A stretch of DNA of 57,545 bases from Gammaproteobacteria bacterium (GTDB lineage: Bacteria > Pseudomonadota > Gammaproteobacteria > SURF-13): NCBI GenBank assembly GCA_003599485.1, contig QZKM01000017.1:1-57545 (forward strand). Reading direction: 5' to 3'. Positions within the stretch are counted from its first letter, which is position 1; the number at the start of each line of letters is the position of its first letter. Shown one piece after another: positions 13,122 to 42,001 of this stretch. The position numbers were made by a program, and so were the translations under genes. The notes under the pieces were generated by a model that made no database searches, was not told where the DNA came from, and saw only the letters and a list, made by a program, of their open reading frames with translations.

Positions 13122-13939
13122 GGCGTTCCCAGCGCCCAGAATAACGCCGCCGCCAGCAGCAGATAACACCACTGGCGCAGCGGCGGAGCGCCGCAGGCGG
13201 GAATATCCAGCGTGACGCAGGGGGCATTCTCGGCGCGCTGCAGAACATTTTCCCATAGCAGGGAGGCGCGCTGCGCGATACGTGCAAGCCTTGTGCTGTG
13301 CTGAGTCGCTCCCGGCGTCCTGTGCCGGGCAGGATGCCCCAATGTCGCGGGCGGTCGCTCCCGGCCTCCTGCCTCCCGCGACACTAGCACATCCCTGTGC
13401 GTCGCCGGGATGCGCGGGAGCGACCCTCCCGCGACACTAGCACGCCCCTGTGCGTCGTCGGGCGCGGCCGCGTGCACCATCAGGTTTTGCACCTCGGCGA
13501 CGGCCTGCAGGGTGAGCATGACGCGCAGCGCCAGCCGTTCGCGCGCGAAGCCCAGCCGGGCGAGCGGGGCGCTGAACCAGAGCAGTGCGGCGAGTAGCGC
13601 CCCGCGCGCGGTGCTTTGCATGAGCAGGTGCGCGGCGAGCATCAGCAGGATGAGCAGCGCAGCGCGTAACAGGCCGTCTTCCAGGCCTTGCAGCGTGGGT
13701 ACGTTGAGCAGGCCGGGAAACACCGGAACGCCGGGTGTGAAGGCAAGGTGTATCAGTACCAGGGAGATCAGCAGCCAGCGCAGGCGTTTGAGCGCCGTGA
13801 GTCCTGTGCGCAAAGGGACTTCGGCCAGATGATAGAACAGGCCGAGCAGGACGGCGGCAGTGAATGCCTGTACCCATGCGGCGCGCGCGAGCAGAACGCA
13901 CAGCGCCAGAAAACCGGACAGGCGTATTACGGGATGCAC
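13118..13939 (-). CDS. EcfT/CbiQ-like membrane protein carrying palindromic-repeat insertions
   Basis: Several hydrophobic helices (LSGFLALCVLLARAAW, LLISLVLIHLAFTPG and others), then STARGALLAALLWFSAPLARLGF and RLALRVMLTLQAVAEVQNLM, resemble the transmembrane (T) component of energy-coupling-factor transporters. No ATPase or S component is nearby. The best start is GTG 13939; the open frame extends to 14014, but those codons are repeat DNA. Residues between about VHAAAPDD and the LARIAQRASLLWENV helix are encoded by two to three copies of a palindromic element (13306-13465), which adds about 50 polar residues without breaking the frame. A TATAAT (13954-13949) lies just before the start. Family call is moderate; transport substrate is unknown. 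Confidence 0.65.
   Translation of the reverse strand: MHPVIRLSGFLALCVLLARAAWVQAFTAAVLLGLFYHLAEVPLRTGLTALKRLRWLLISLVLIHLAFTPGVPVFPGLLNVPTLQGLEDGLLRAALLILLMLAAHLLMQSTARGALLAALLWFSAPLARLGFARERLALRVMLTLQAVAEVQNLMVHAAAPDDAQGRASVAGGSLPRIPATHRDVLVSREAGGRERPPATLGHPARHRTPGATQHSTRLARIAQRASLLWENVLQRAENAPCVTLDIPACGAPPLRQWCYLLLAAALFWALGTP
13306..13465. repeat. Palindromic element B, copies 1-3 (inside the EcfT-like gene)
   Basis: Copy 1 (from 13306) has the left arm TCGCTCCCGGCGTCCTG but lacks the core. Copy 2 (13355-13423) is complete: left end TCGCTCCCGG, core GACACTAGCAC-ATCCC-TGTGCGTC (hairpin GCACATCCCTGTGC at 13387-13400), right end GGGAGCGA, so its ends are inverted repeats. Copy 3 (about 13424-13465) has the core with GCACGCCCCTGTGC at 13440-13453. 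All lie in one open reading frame. Related copies are at 14084-14142 and 39385-39444. Confidence 0.85.
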
Positions 13940-13955
13940 ACAGAAACCATTATAA

Positions 13956-14036
13956 GGAAGCCCTGATTTATTCAGGGCTTCCGCGCGATGCATGGATGCA
14001 TCGCCATTTTTCAAATACTTGCGTATTTGAAAAATG
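13956..14036. repeat. Three-hairpin element A, copy 1
   Basis: 81 nt made of three perfect stem-loops in a row: GGAAGCCCTGA/TCAGGGCTTCC (13956-13982), GCGATGCA/TGCATCGC around loop TGGA (13985-14004), and CATTTTTCAAATAC/GTATTTGAAAAATG around TTGC (14005-14036). The same architecture with the same 81-nt length and 2-nt spacer is at 23759-23839. The outer sequence TAAGGAAGCCCTGA is echoed inverted at 14149-14161, so a larger composite of about 210 bp (13952-14161) may be the mobile unit. Confidence 0.85.
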
Positions 14037-14083
14037 AAGAAAAGAAAAAATCATATTTTTGCTTTTCGTGCTCTGAGAATTAA

Positions 14084-14142
14084 TCGCTCACGGCATCCTG
14101 CCTTCCGCGACACTAGCACATCCCTGTGCGTCGCAGGATGGA
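14084..14142. repeat. Palindromic element B, copy 4 (intergenic, downstream of fimV)
   Basis: TCGCTCACGGCATCCTGCC begins at 14084 and is followed by the core GACACTAGCACATCCCTGTG (hairpin GCACATCCCTGTGC at 14116-14129) and GTCGCAGGATGG. It matches copy 2 at 13355-13423 nearly base for base through the core, but the right terminal GGGAGCGA is replaced. It fills the gap between element A and the fimV stop. Confidence 0.85.
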
Positions 14143-14158
14143 ATTATTCAGAGCTTCC

Positions 14159-16516
14159 TTAAGCGATCTGCCGCATTAATTCCTGGGCTTCCTTCTTTTG
14201 CGCGGCGTTGCCTTCCTGCATCACCTCATCCAGGATGCTGCGCGCGCCTTCGGCATCACCCATATCAATATAGGCGCGCGCCAGATCAAGCTTGGTTGCG
14301 ACCTCGTCCGTGGTGGTGACGTCGGTATCGAATTCCAGTGCGGTATCGGGCTCTGTGCCCGCATCCGCCTGTGACGTAGTGGCGGGGCCCAAGCCGGAGT
14401 CCATGCTGGTGGCGGTGTCGGCGTGAACGGGCTCTCCACCGAGGTCAAGCTTCGCAAAATCAACTTCCATTTCATCGGCTTGTTCCGGTTTGGCGGATGC
14501 ATCCAACTGCAAGTCGGCCAGATTGTATTCCGCCACGCCTTGCACATCCAGTGCATCGGTGGATTGAGTGCCGGTGTCAAAGTCCAGAGTGAAATCCAGC
14601 GCATTATCGGCGGGTTGCGCGGTGGCCTGTACGGGCGGAGTGGAGAGTGTAGCGGCGGTTTCCGGCGCCGCGGGCAGGGCGACATCAATCTCCGACGCGG
14701 ACGCAATCTCGGTGCTGAAGGCCTCTCCGCCGCCAAACAGCGGGTCGCCGGGGGCAAGGTCTTTGCCCATCGCCGCCACTTTATCCCAGATGGTTGCGCC
14801 CGTGCCGCCCAGCGCCGTGTAGAGTTCTTCGGCGTGAATCAGGAAGGCGCTGCTGTTGCGCGTGAGATGATAAAGTTCCAGCAGCTTGAGCTTGATATCG
14901 TGGCGATCCGGCTGATCGGCGATGGCGCGCTTTAAAATATTTTCTGCTTGCGTGTATTGTTCGTAGGCAATGTACACGTCCGCTTCCGCGATGGGGTCTG
15001 CTGAAGCGGCAGCGGGTTCCTCACTGGACAAGGCGGTTTGCGCGGCCTCAGGTTGCGTGGCGCTTTCCATCAAAGACGTGGCGGCGGGATTGGTGATGGT
15101 AAACGTGCTGCTCTCGGCGGTGATGATGCTGCTGACCTCACGCCGCCGCCGGATGACCTGAATGAGCGCCAGCATCAGCAGCAATGCGCCCCCCGCCATG
15201 CCGAGCGTCATCGGATCGCGGGGCAGGTTATCGAGCAGGCCGCCGGGCGCCGGAGTTTCGGGTTGTATGGTTTCACCGGATTCTGCTGTAGCAGGTTCCT
15301 CACCGGTTGCTTCTGCAGCCATTTGGGCCGGAGATGTTTCCGCGGCGTCAGGTGCAGCCTCCGCGCCCACTTTGGACTGAAGCGCGGCCAGGTTTTCGTC
15401 CTTAAGTGTAATGATGCCCTGCATCATCTCTACCTGTTTTTCCAGGTCCGAGATGCGCGAACGCAATTCTTCATTTTCGAGCTTTGACGATTCCAGCGCT
15501 TCGGTGGTGACGGCCAGTTCTTGCTTGAGGTCGGAGTCCGCCGCTCCCGGAGAGCCGCTCGCACTGTCATTGCCTTGAGCCGCGCCGGCCGCTACCAGCT
15601 TTAAACGGTGATCGGCGCCTGCCGCTTCTCCGGCTTCCGAGTCCGCAGTTCCTTGCGCCGCGCTGGTTGCATCTGTTGCCGCAGTTGCGGCTCCAGCCGC
15701 TGCAGCACGCGCGGACTTGATGTCACTCCAGCGTGCATGTTGCTGCCTGACTTCATGCAGCGCCTCTTGCTGGCTGAGCGCGGCGATCTCGCTCGGGCCG
15801 GGGATGCGCAGCGTGTAACCGGCCTTGAGACCATTGATGTTTTTGTGCAGAAAGGCTTCGGGATTGGCCTTGAGCAGGGCGAGCATCATTTGCTCGGTCG
15901 TGATCGCGCCGTCCGGGCGAAGTTGATTCGCCAGCGTCCACAGGGTATCGGTGCGCTGCACCGGTCCATATTCCGTGCCGGTATAGGTACCCGTGACGCC
16001 GGCCGTTTGCGGTGAGAGACGCGTTTCGGCGGCGGGCGCAGGCTCGCTGACGGAGGTTGGCGGCTCAGCCTGAACAGGCCTGGACGCCACCGCCGGGGCT
16101 TTGATTACGGGCGGCGCGGCGCGCACGAAGGTCGGCGGGTCGAGCAGCACGGTGTACTGCTTGAGCAGACGGCCGTTGGGCCAGTTGACCTCAATCAGAT
16201 AATTGAGAAACGGCTCCTTGATCGGTTCCTGGCTGAACACGCGAATATAGGATTTGCCATCGGACTTTTGCAGTACGCGGAAATAAAGGCTGGTGAGCAG
16301 AAACGGCCGCTCCACCCCCGCCTGCGCGAACGCCTCGCTGGAGGCCAGCGATACGCTGATGTTGTCCTGCTCTTCGGGGCGCACGGCGAGCAGTTCAATT
16401 TCCGCCTCCAGCGGCTGATTGAGGCCGGAGCGCACGTGGATGTCCCCCAGCCCCAGCGCATGGGCGCTTAAGGACGTGACAAGCAAAATCAAACCGAGGG
16501 CCAATCTATGCAGCAT
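14159..16516 (-). CDS. fimV: FimV-family polar hub protein
   Basis: An inner-membrane, peptidoglycan-binding scaffold for type IV pili and polar organisation. 785 residues from ATG 16516, chosen over GTG 16522 because AAAGGGG sits at proper spacing. In order: signal peptide (MLHRLALGLILLVTSLSAHA), the conserved FimV N-terminal domain beginning LGLGDIHVRSGLNQPL, a LysM-type domain near residues 190-240, a coiled coil near 340-385 (LESSKLENEELRSRISDLEK), a membrane helix near 435-455, and an acidic tail ending in the FimV C-terminal helical motif (LDLARAYIDMGDAEGARSIL). The asd-fimV-truA context is classical. Confidence 0.93.
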   Translation of the reverse strand: MLHRLALGLILLVTSLSAHALGLGDIHVRSGLNQPLEAEIELLAVRPEEQDNISVSLASSEAFAQAGVERPFLLTSLYFRVLQKSDGKSYIRVFSQEPIKEPFLNYLIEVNWPNGRLLKQYTVLLDPPTFVRAAPPVIKAPAVASRPVQAEPPTSVSEPAPAAETRLSPQTAGVTGTYTGTEYGPVQRTDTLWTLANQLRPDGAITTEQMMLALLKANPEAFLHKNINGLKAGYTLRIPGPSEIAALSQQEALHEVRQQHARWSDIKSARAAAAGAATAATDATSAAQGTADSEAGEAAGADHRLKLVAAGAAQGNDSASGSPGAADSDLKQELAVTTEALESSKLENEELRSRISDLEKQVEMMQGIITLKDENLAALQSKVGAEAAPDAAETSPAQMAAEATGEEPATAESGETIQPETPAPGGLLDNLPRDPMTLGMAGGALLLMLALIQVIRRRREVSSIITAESSTFTITNPAATSLMESATQPEAAQTALSSEEPAAASADPIAEADVYIAYEQYTQAENILKRAIADQPDRHDIKLKLLELYHLTRNSSAFLIHAEELYTALGGTGATIWDKVAAMGKDLAPGDPLFGGGEAFSTEIASASEIDVALPAAPETAATLSTPPVQATAQPADNALDFTLDFDTGTQSTDALDVQGVAEYNLADLQLDASAKPEQADEMEVDFAKLDLGGEPVHADTATSMDSGLGPATTSQADAGTEPDTALEFDTDVTTTDEVATKLDLARAYIDMGDAEGARSILDEVMQEGNAAQKKEAQELMRQIA

Positions 16517-16615
16517 ATCCACCCCTTTCCGCTTCTGCTCAGCGGGTGCTCTTCAGGTCTTATAGCCCTTTCAGGACTGATAGTTAGCCTGCTAAGCTCC
16601 GAACTACCTTTAAGG

Positions 16616-23758: not shown

Positions 23759-23839
23759 GCAGGCTGTTGAGAAACAGCCTGCGTGCGGCGCAGGGATGCG
23801 CCGCCATTTTTCAAACACGCAGTAGGTGTTTGAAAAATG
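23759..23839. repeat. Three-hairpin element A, copy 2
   Basis: 81 nt: GCAGGCTGTT/AACAGCCTGC around GAGA (23759-23782), GCGGCGCA/TGCGCCGC around GGGA (23785-23804), and CATTTTTCAAACAC/GTGTTTGAAAAATG around a 7-base loop (23805-23839). Relative to copy 1, hairpin 2 has two compensatory pair changes (A-T to G-C, T-A to C-G) and hairpin 3 has one (T-A to C-G). Hairpin 1 is unrelated in sequence but is kept as a stem. Confidence 0.88.
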
Positions 23840-23931
23840 GCGCAAACTGGCGGGCGCAGCTCGAAAGGCCGCCGCGAGCGTGGAACCGATTCTGGTATAA
23901 TCAATCCTATTGGCAGATTGCGAGGTGAATT

Positions 23932-39268: not shown

Positions 39269-39982
39269 CTACAACTTGAGTGCGAGGGTCAGCCCGTCGG
39301 CCAGAGGCAGCAGGCTCAAGGCGATGCGCGAATCGTGGTGTAACTTTTGATTGAGCTTGTGAATCGCCAGTGTCGCCTCGTCAGTCGCTCCCGGCATCCT
39401 GCCTCGCGCGACATTAGTACTTCCTTGTACGTCACAATGGAGCGCGTCAACTACTCGCCCATCACGTAGCATATTATCAAGCACGATCAGCCCGCCGGGA
39501 CGCAATAATTGCAGGCTGTGCTCATAATAGTCATCGTAGCCGGTCTTGTCGGCGTCTATGAATACAAAGTCAAACGTGGCGGCCTGGCCGTCGCGCAGCA
39601 GTTGGTTGAGAGTTTGCAGCGCCGGGGCAAGACGCAGTTCGATCTTGTCGGCCACCCCTGCCTCTTGCCAATAGCGCCGCGCGACTTTGGTCCATTCCTC
39701 GCTCACATCGCAGGCGATCAGCTTGCCGTCCGCAGGCAGGGCGAGCGCCACACACAGCGCGCTGTAACCGGTGAAGACGCCGATCTCCAGGGCCTTTTTG
39801 GCCCGCAGCAACTGCACCAATAGCGCCATGAACTGACCCTGTTCGGGCGCAATCTGCATGTTGGCCATGGGATGCCTGGCGGTCTCTGCACGCAGGTGCT
39901 TGAGCAGCGGCGGCTCGCGCAGCGAGACGGAGAGCAAATACTCGTACAAGCCTTCAGTCATGTTGATGGTTTTGTTGCTCAT
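39269..39982 (-). CDS. SAM-dependent O-methyltransferase (COMT-like) with repeat-encoded insertion
   Basis: 237 residues. Class I methyltransferase of the catechol/caffeoyl-CoA type: EIGVFTGYSALCVALALP (SAM site), FDFVFIDADKTGYDDYYE (metal/SAM), LIVLDNMLRDGRVVD. Between GRVVDA and DEATLAIHKLNQ, where relatives have only a short loop, there are about 20 extra residues (LHCDVQGSTNVARGRMPGAT). They are encoded by a 60-nt palindromic element at 39385-39444. The conserved end SLLPLADGLTLALKL is intact, so the protein is probably still active. Substrate unknown. Confidence 0.88.
   Translation of the reverse strand: MSNKTINMTEGLYEYLLSVSLREPPLLKHLRAETARHPMANMQIAPEQGQFMALLVQLLRAKKALEIGVFTGYSALCVALALPADGKLIACDVSEEWTKVARRYWQEAGVADKIELRLAPALQTLNQLLRDGQAATFDFVFIDADKTGYDDYYEHSLQLLRPGGLIVLDNMLRDGRVVDALHCDVQGSTNVARGRMPGATDEATLAIHKLNQKLHHDSRIALSLLPLADGLTLALKL
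39385..39444. repeat. Palindromic element B, copy 5 (in frame inside the O-methyltransferase gene)
   Basis: Plus strand: left end TCGCTCCCGGCATCCTGCC (39385 on), core GACATTAGTACTTCCTTGTA (hairpin GTACTTCCTTGTAC at 39417-39430), right end GGAGCG (39439-39444). Exactly 60 nt, so it adds 20 codons. Compared with copies 2 and 4, the core stem changes C to T on one side and G to A on the other, which keeps the base pair. Confidence 0.85.
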
Positions 39983-40684: not shown

Positions 40685-42001
40685 TTAGTCCTTGGTTTTT
40701 TTATCGAGCTCGCGCAGATGCGCGAGCTTCTCGGCGATCTTGATTTCCAGGCCGCGCTCGACCGGATAATAATAGCGCCTTTCGCCCAGTTCTTGCGGGA
40801 AATAGCGCTCACCCGCGGCATAGCCTTCGGTTTCGTCGTGCGCGTAGCGGTAGTCTTTGCCGTAATCGAGTTCCTTCATCAGGCGGGTGGGCGCATTGCG
40901 CAGGTGCAGCGGCACTTCCAGCGAGCCGTGCGTCTTGGCGTCATTCATCGCGGCGCCAAATGCGGTGTAAACGGCATTGCTCTTGGGCGCGCAGGCCATG
41001 TACACCACGGCCTGCGCCAGCGCCAGTTCGCCCTCCGGTTGACCTAAGCGCTCCTGCACGTCCCAGGCGTTGCGCGCGATCTCCAGCGCGCGCGGGTCGG
41101 CGTTGCCGATATCCTCGCTCGCCATGCGCAGCACGCGCCGCGCGATGTATAACGGATCGCAGCCGCCGTCCAGCATGCGCGCCAGCCAATACAAGGCGGC
41201 GTCGGGCGAGGAGCCGCGCACCGATTTGTGCAGGGCGGAAATCTGGTCATAAAACGCCTCGCCGTATTTGTCGAAGCGGCGCGTGCCGCCGCTGCTCAGC
41301 ACTTCATTCAATAATTCTTCGGTGATGACGGCGCGCCCGTCCCTGGGCTCGGCAAGATCGGCGGCGATCTCCAGCAGGTTCAGCGCGCGCCGCGCGTCGC
41401 CGTCGGCTGCCAGCGCCAGGCGCTCGCGCAGCGTCTCAGCCATGTCCAGCCTCAGTTTGCCCAGGCCGTGCTCATCATCGGACAGCGCGCGGTCTATCAC
41501 CTGGTGGATTTCAGCGACTTGCAGCGCCTTCAACACATACACGCGCGCACGCGACAGCAGTGCGTTGTTCAACTCAAACGACGGATTTTCCGTGGTGGCG
41601 CCAATAAAGGTAAACGTGCCGTTTTCCACATAAGGCAAAAAGGCGTCCTGCTGTGATTTGTTGAAGCGATGCACCTCGTCCACGAACAGCACCGTGCCCT
41701 GGCCGAGCTTCTGCGCCTGCTCCGCCCTGGCAACCATGTCCCGAATGTCCTTCACCCCCGCCAGCACCGCCGAGATGCTCAAGAACTGGGCGTTGGATTT
41801 TTTTGCGATGAGGCGAGCCAGCGTGGTCTTGCCCGTCCCCGGCGGCCCCCAGAACACCATCGAGTGCAGGTGGCCGGATTCAATCGCCAGGCGCAGCGGT
41901 TTGCCCGGGCCGAGCAGGTGCGCCTGGCCGTAAAAATCCTCCAGCCGCTGCGGCCGCAGGCGGTCGGCGAGGGGGCGGGTATCAACGCTCACAAAGGCCA
42001 C
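40685..42001 (-). CDS. rarA: Replication-associated recombination protein A (AAA+ ATPase)
   Basis: Clamp-loader-like ATPase acting at stalled forks, also called MgsA. 438 residues. Walker A is GPPGTGKTT (52-60), Walker B is [10 protein letters not shown], sensor region [12 protein letters not shown], and the C-terminal tetramerisation region carries [20 protein letters not shown]. The start is GTG 42001, directly after the YbdD-like stop (TGA-GTG); a second in-frame GTG 9 bases later is also possible. Confidence 0.95.

Follow-up and report, generated by a model that had tools for sequence, protein, structure and literature searches.

Introduction

Several kinds of small repeats in bacterial genomes have been described that resemble the locus analyzed here in one respect or another. 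QMITE2 of Coxiella burnetii is described in PMC5896051 as an element of 150-190 bp with a stable fold, which is located mainly in 3' untranslated or intergenic regions and which contains a second repeat, a GTAG REP. REPs have been reported near the 3' ends of genes (PMC3733652), and a REP in a DNA ligase gene has been reported as well (PMC3733652, PMC10969869). For Rsm/CsrA, the sites CANGGANG and RUACARGGAUGU have been published (PMC6849547).

A DNA stretch of 57,545 nucleotides from a gammaproteobacterium of the SURF-13 lineage (contig QZKM01000017.1, hereafter the window) was analyzed around a repeat unit downstream of fimV. Two components were distinguished in this unit and are termed element A and element B. 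It appears very probable that element A is a gene-less MITE which is mobilized in trans by IS5-family transposases with duplication of a 4-bp target, and that element B is an independent repeat nested in it.

Organization of the repeat unit downstream of fimV

The unit is located between fimV on the minus strand and an EcfT-like open frame, for which the Pfam search returned no family. A preliminary description of this DNA had proposed imperfect terminal inverted repeats around a unit of approximately 210 bp, and the terminal arms at 13953-13973 and 14141-14161 are indeed complementary at 18 of 21 positions. Arm pairs of this quality with a start distance of 150-229 nt occur twice in the window, compared with 0.05 on average when the sequence was shuffled by mononucleotides (20 shuffles), and the other equally good pair is found at 41713/41901. 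The fimV stop codon, which had been placed at the right end of the unit, was located within the right flank (14159-14161). The 203-bp body of element A contains no open frame of 60 aa and is too short for a transposase.

A search of the own genome (G000) with the unit yielded 55 matches, which include separate pieces of A (query 24-152 and 205-235) and B (query 155-204 and beyond). This agrees with the earlier view that two repeat families are present inside the unit. Further copies with such ends, which the preliminary description had proposed to look for, exist both in the own genome and in other genomes of the class. The printed own-genome copies of A are approximately 150 bp long and mostly devoid of B. 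The coordinates of all features are collected in Table 1.

Table 1. Features of the window and their coordinates.
Feature	Position	Strand	Remarks
Window (contig 7 of own genome G000)			assembly of 1.69 Mb in 50 contigs
B copy inside EcfT-like open frame	13354..13406	+	B model
Partial B copy inside EcfT-like open frame, beside the 13354..13406 copy	13425..13459	+	B model
Left 4-bp flank ATAA	13952..13955		3/4 identical to right flank
Element A, full-length MITE body, nested B included	13956..14158	+	203 bp; covariance model 139.4 bits
Hairpin 1	13956..13982	+	5' arm is the left terminal inverted repeat
Hairpin 2	13985..14004	+	loop region CATGGATG, fits CANGGANG
Hairpin 3	14005..14036	+	14 perfect pairs
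Hairpin 4	14039..14067	+
Hairpin 5	14070..14154	+	loop interrupted by B; 3' arm within right terminal inverted repeat
Element B, 51-nt repeat in hairpin 5 loop	14083..14133	+	model match 14083-14135, 78.3 bits; CANGGANG on minus strand
Right 4-bp flank TTAA	14159..14162		holds fimV stop codon (14159-14161, minus strand)
fimV	14159..16522	minus	PF25800 FimV_N, E 3.7e-42
Second A-type element in window	23759..23879	+	CAGGCTGTTGA end type, right half degenerate, 51.6 bits
B copy in O-methyltransferase gene (PF01596), in-frame	39384..39436	+	16 gap positions (two pieces) vs 5lhm

Element A as a MITE

The classification of element A as a MITE is supported by its terminal inverted repeats, its flanking repeats, its dispersed copies and an occupancy that differs between relatives. 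A second subfamily was recognized that has the ends CTAGCAGGCTGTTGA and TCAACAACCTGTTAG and the same interior as the first one. The copy at L040:962-1116 is a chimera, which combines the left end of one subfamily with the right end of the other.

Flanking sequences were compared for 61 candidate copies. Nine of these were excluded for a missing end, which left 52 copies that are two-ended by the script thresholds, including a few rows that remain doubtful end pairings. Identical 4-bp flanks were detected in 34 of the 52 copies (permuted mean 7.1, maximum 17 in 20000), and the flanks of 44 copies match at three or more of the four bases. The flanks of 18 copies are not identical, and those of the window copy differ at one of four bases. 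The insertion of IS5 elements follows a YTAR target rule. Most identical flanking 4-mers of A are TTAA, TTAG or CTAA, and the left flanks of the 52 copies (TTAA in 13, TTAG in 10, CTAG in 6 and CTAA in 5) fit a 4-bp YTAR target. Identical 4-mers also flank 14 of 20 copies from 18 other genomes (permutation mean 2.6). Since YTAR-like targets contain TAA or TAG, an insertion at the end of a gene can duplicate the stop codon. Duplication of such a 4-bp target can leave the gene intact, and the fimV copy of A has the appearance of a stop-codon-duplicating insertion.

The preliminary description had also suggested searching relatives for an empty site at the fimV/EcfT-like junction. The junction is empty in all six readable outgroup genomes (G002, G003, G004, G005, G026 and G027), in which fimV is followed by the EcfT-like frame across short spacers and the A model has no match at the fimV loci. 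Two further genomes (G024 and G033) gave no readable fimV junction. At its fimV site, the same-genus genome G001 has the right end of A including hairpin 5. This end lacks B and gives way to other repetitive sequence. This remnant is a degenerate match to the A model (44.4 bits) at the same contig place as the MAG record JAMCTV010000115.1, and the B model has no match there. Element A probably arrived at the fimV junction after the genus had split from the other examined genera of its family.

IS5-family elements as likely mobilizers

Element A contains no transposase gene. Its movement most likely depended on an IS5-family transposase acting on its ends in trans. A search for the transposase family PF05598 was negative for the own genome, so that the likely mobilizer has to be deduced from relatives. 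Three of 11 genomes were positive: G003 has two matches, G026 and G033 a single one each. An insertion sequence of G003, a genome of the same bacterial family as the own genome, is flanked by TATA on both sides and has the ends GGGACCTCTGAA and TTCAGAGGTCTC (L110). A match to the Rfam model sX9 (Xanthomonas sRNA) was noted beside it (L110:2027-2100, E 5e-07). A truncated element of the same genome (L113) begins with TTAG-GGAACCTCTGAATAA, and its truncated transposase matches NF033581 (IS5 family) with 146.8 bits at a cut-off of 140. Relatives of this piece were found in 28 of 274 class genomes (E 1e-20). Beyond the truncated 5' part of the transposase gene, this locus contains short repeats at approximately 1870-1992.

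The ends of 18 insertion sequence loci were examined. Six of them (L116, L117, L122, L123, L124 and L127) have end pairs of 14-18 of 20 and flanks identical at 4/4 bases, and for 11 of the 18 none of the end pairs listed is flanked by the same four bases on both sides. The ends of A are similar and not identical to those of the six elements (11-15 of 18 positions). The element of G130 (L119) spans 873-2030 (1158 bp) and is flanked by CTAA on both sides. It directly adjoins a copy of A with CTAA between the two (L119:873-2187), and the right end first listed for this insertion sequence was rejected as it belongs to the adjoining A copy. The A model was applied to 32 insertion sequence loci and matched only this copy beside the L119 element. 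The comparison of ends and flanks supports IS5 well as the kind of element whose enzymes would have mobilized A. The MITE-like nature that had been proposed for the unit is thus borne out by its ends, the 4-bp flanking repeats, the copy number, the empty sites and the similar ends of IS5-family elements in relatives.

Element B is an independent repeat that enters genes

The consensus of element B has a length of 51 nt, equal to 17 codons. It is a repeat independent of A, which is nested in the hairpin 5 loop of A at the locus studied and present in-frame in protein genes elsewhere. One example is ligA, in which the own genome contains B between CTGGAA and CAGGTG and G001 has an empty site that reads CTGGAACAAGTG. 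The ligA genes of G003 and G004 also lack B at this insertion point, which could not be parsed by the script in G002, G005 and G026. The B model has no match in the ligA loci of G001, G002 and G004. Alignment to a solved LigA places 20 query residues against 4 at the insertion point, and no target duplication is visible at this insertion. A B-model match of 47.9 bits is present within the ligA stretch of G005 (L234:2159-2229), at another place than the insertion of the own genome.

Copies of B were detected in open frames with Pfam assignments to NAD ligase, an EF-Tu-type GTPase, which we take to be CysN-like, LpxB, an O-methyltransferase and CheR, and in further Pfam-recognized frames for a GDSL lipase, RecG (G005), GATase_2 and a SpoU methylase. 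The tenth B-bearing protein (L055) has no Pfam family at the threshold used. Both orientations of B with respect to the frame are represented, and because the longest open frame at the 26 B matches need not be the true gene, no in-frame rate is claimed. The EcfT-like frame next to the unit contains B copies of its own (Table 1). The corresponding frame of G001 is free of B copies by eye, and the B model has no match in this locus (L057).

Did elements A and B move together?

The preliminary description had suggested that the two repeat families moved together. Three A copies of the own genome (the window copy, L022 and L024) share the point at which B interrupts hairpin 5, and the B of L024 is decayed and gave no visible B-model match. 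As a shared point in three copies is unlikely to result from independent random insertions, it points to co-spread, to a preference for this loop or to an exchange of right halves. One explanation for the shared position is that B was captured in a master copy of A and that the pair has since transposed as one composite mobile unit. The L022 copy agrees with this explanation, since the whole composite (A, a third repeat and B, with TTAA on both sides) is absent at the same site in G001, where the A model has no match and neither the third repeat nor B is seen by eye. This empty site fits the arrival of A and B as a unit. The G001 locus contains a B copy elsewhere (L241:540-592). The third repeat, with GGCAGGATGCC-type hairpins, is present in L022 and L039, and its GGGCAGGATGCCC- and GCGCAGGGATGCGC-type hairpins are located inside or beside these A copies (L022, G000 C4; L039, G000 C8). 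Weak B-model matches at 13305-13354 of the window were listed together with it.

Other observations argue against a composite unit. The fimV site of G001 contains the right end of A without B, and by eye none of the printed A copies from other genomes carries B in hairpin 5. The two halves of the B-containing copies also differ in their relationships: the right halves of the window copy and L022 are 92.0% alike and the left halves only 77.2%. In its left half, the window copy is more similar to the B-less L021 (89.9%) than to L022 (77.2%) or L024 (84.4%), and the left half of L022 is 87.8% like the B-less L023. These half-copy similarities would fit better with exchange or repeated insertion than with simple descent. 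Thus, the shared position of B and the composite absent from G001 favor the earlier suggestion of joint movement, while the B-less A end of G001 and the left halves nearest to B-less copies speak against it, and a composite mobile unit is regarded as possible and rather doubtful. The order of these events is what we infer.

Distribution and five-hairpin fold of element A

The covariance model of A matched 71 of 369 sampled genomes of the class (E 1e-5), which belong to 45 families by hand count. Nine of the 71 positive genomes had contributed sequences to the model, at most eight candidates were scored per genome, and the search was run on real genomes only, without a shuffled-genome control. 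The stems are quite different among the 20 copies from 18 other genomes, and weaker matches, for example in G128, G317 and G214, have other ends and the same layout. Rfam contained nothing credible for A (sub-threshold only: mir-3167, E 0.54, and AS-pc02, E 0.38), one clean copy had no match in plasmid and phage collections (E 1e-5), and no description of A was found in the open-licence literature searched.

The fold was tested on an alignment of 42 copies (A1), of which 35 were used. L031 and L076 were dropped for a longer hairpin 4, and L032, L036, L095, L100 and L040 for another end type. The tested structure consists of five hairpins and was written from one copy. In total, 95.8% of 2054 cells pair in this structure compared with 36.7-51.2% in slid controls, a percentage that is favored over the slid versions because the structure was taken from one of the tested sequences. 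Two-sided changes were found in 25 of 59 pairs and amount to 126 cells (10-23 such cells in slid controls), and none of 500 shuffles reached the observed value on any of five measures. The two-sided pairs are distributed over hairpins 1 to 5 as 3, 5, 10, 6 and 1, hairpin 5 accounting for only one of the 25. When RNAalifold was applied to all 42 copies, it predicted a structure that resembles the tested one without being the same and that lacks hairpin 1. For the window copy, a folding energy of -83.2 kcal/mol (z -7.87) was calculated, and hairpin 5 encloses B in this fold. Element A keeps its five hairpins by compensatory change.

Quasi-palindrome template switching is a mechanism that keeps the arms of a hairpin as mutual copies. 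The pairing in A could therefore be maintained by mutation, with one arm copied to the other, instead of by selection, and the presence of two-sided changes in all five hairpins is compatible with such a process. However, template switching predicts loops that are free to vary, and the hairpin 2 loop is nearly fixed as CA-GGA-G with two variable N positions. The hairpin layout is also kept in matches from 45 families (hand count). Template switching is regarded as an improbable explanation of the conserved pairing. We infer that a function or constraint at the level of RNA or single-strand DNA accounts for the retention of the five hairpins.

The hairpin 2 loop and a candidate link to CsrA/RsmA

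Within the hairpin 2 region, the motif CANGGANG was detected in all but a few copies (36 of 42 near copies and 19 of 20 other copies), counted as presence of the motif within positions 25-60, whatever the stem. Of the 22 matches of B in the own genome, 18 carry it as well, on their minus strand. Both observations would suit a transcribed, structured RNA in which hairpin 2, and perhaps hairpin 5, is bound by CsrA/RsmA, the transposon either spreading binding sites or tuning or silencing itself, and the near-constancy of the motif on covarying stems points in the same direction. The comparison across genomes does not. The csrA gene (PF02599) was found in 313 of 369 genomes and is not associated with A: 62 of the 71 genomes with A have csrA, as have 251 of the 298 without A (counts from compared listings, both searches taken as the same 369 genomes). 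No decay of the loop was detected where csrA is lacking: the motif was exact in 13 of the 23 copies analyzed from genomes that lack a csrA match (23 of 29 matches) and in 14 of the 25 weak copies analyzed from genomes that have one (25 of 76 matches). As the absence of csrA from draft genomes may reflect incompleteness, the csrA test is weak in both directions. No bias toward the sense strand was observed among the co-directional sites (8 sense versus 6 antisense). Binding of a transcribed element A by CsrA/RsmA is considered unlikely on balance, and the functional reading of the nearly fixed hairpin 2 loop is a lead and not a result.

A wider version of this idea would place A in a class-wide superfamily of transposable elements that carry a five-hairpin RNA, including a hairpin of the CsrA/RsmA type, as their cargo, mounted on at least two end types and with its loop motif recurring in the unrelated element B. 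This version is quite speculative. If it were true, mobile repeats throughout the Gammaproteobacteria would seed or titrate sites for a global regulator that binds RNA.

Genomic placement and promoter prediction

The placement of A was analyzed for 49 copies with a simple, crude open-frame caller, which identified both neighbors for 39 copies and flagged four loci with a frame spanning the element. The 39 copies comprise 17 between convergent genes, 8 between divergent genes, 8 co-directional in the sense of A and 6 opposite to it. For several copies, the distance from A to the end of the neighboring gene is 0 or slightly below, which is expected if the target contains a stop codon. The 17 convergent sites would also suit a REP/BIME-like element or a terminator that no insertion sequence mobilizes, an explanation that is very improbable in view of the defined ends of A with their 4-bp flanking repeats and the empty sites.

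The unit had further been proposed to donate a promoter to the EcfT-like frame through a TATAAT word at the left junction. The word is present on the minus strand, but the promoter scan reported no site that uses it, and this proposal was rejected. The scan predicted two 9-of-12 promoter-like sites inside the element compared with 0.3 expected in shuffles, and one predicted promoter-like site within the element (14079-14050, minus strand) is directed toward the EcfT-like frame. Such scan matches do not indicate that the sites function.

Comparison with described elements

Element A is an ordinary kind of element, a MITE with a nested small repeat, that is unusually structured and widespread. 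At this locus a gene-invading repeat lies within a MITE, and near relatives provide an empty site for either of the two. If the fold is under selection, A would be a widespread structured element without a family in the searched copy of Rfam. It would then be a testable question what makes a transposon without genes retain five hairpins and a nearly fixed loop across approximately 45 families.

The ends of the GGAA-CTCTGA kind and the 4-bp flanking repeats are shared by A with IS5-family insertion sequences and their derived MITEs. Unlike A, the insertion sequences contain a transposase, and the five-hairpin interior was not found in them with the A model. By description, A is similar to QMITE2 in size, stable fold, placement and the presence of a second repeat inside. 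The direct repeats of QMITE2 as given in the same source are 7-11 nt long and variable in sequence and those of A have 4 bp, which places A outside QMITE2 as it is described there (PMC5896051).

CsrA/RsmA-binding hairpins of the CsrB/RsmY type, as described in the cited sources, resemble A in the presentation of CANGGANG on a short stem (PMC6849547, PMC4383904). A differs from them in having one clear putative site per element, which is located on a transposable repeat.

Element B appears comparable to Rickettsia palindromic elements and to intragenic REPs. According to the cited descriptions, Rickettsia palindromic elements and intragenic GTAG/CGTC REPs are, like B, small, hairpin-bearing and located in-frame in conserved genes (PMC3733652, PMC10969869). 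A GTAG or CGTC tag ahead of the B stem was not seen by eye in 17 aligned copies. B is likened to the Rickettsia palindromic elements by description and differs from them in its length of 51 nt, compared with the reported size of approximately 150 bp, and in its occurrence in a gammaproteobacterial family.
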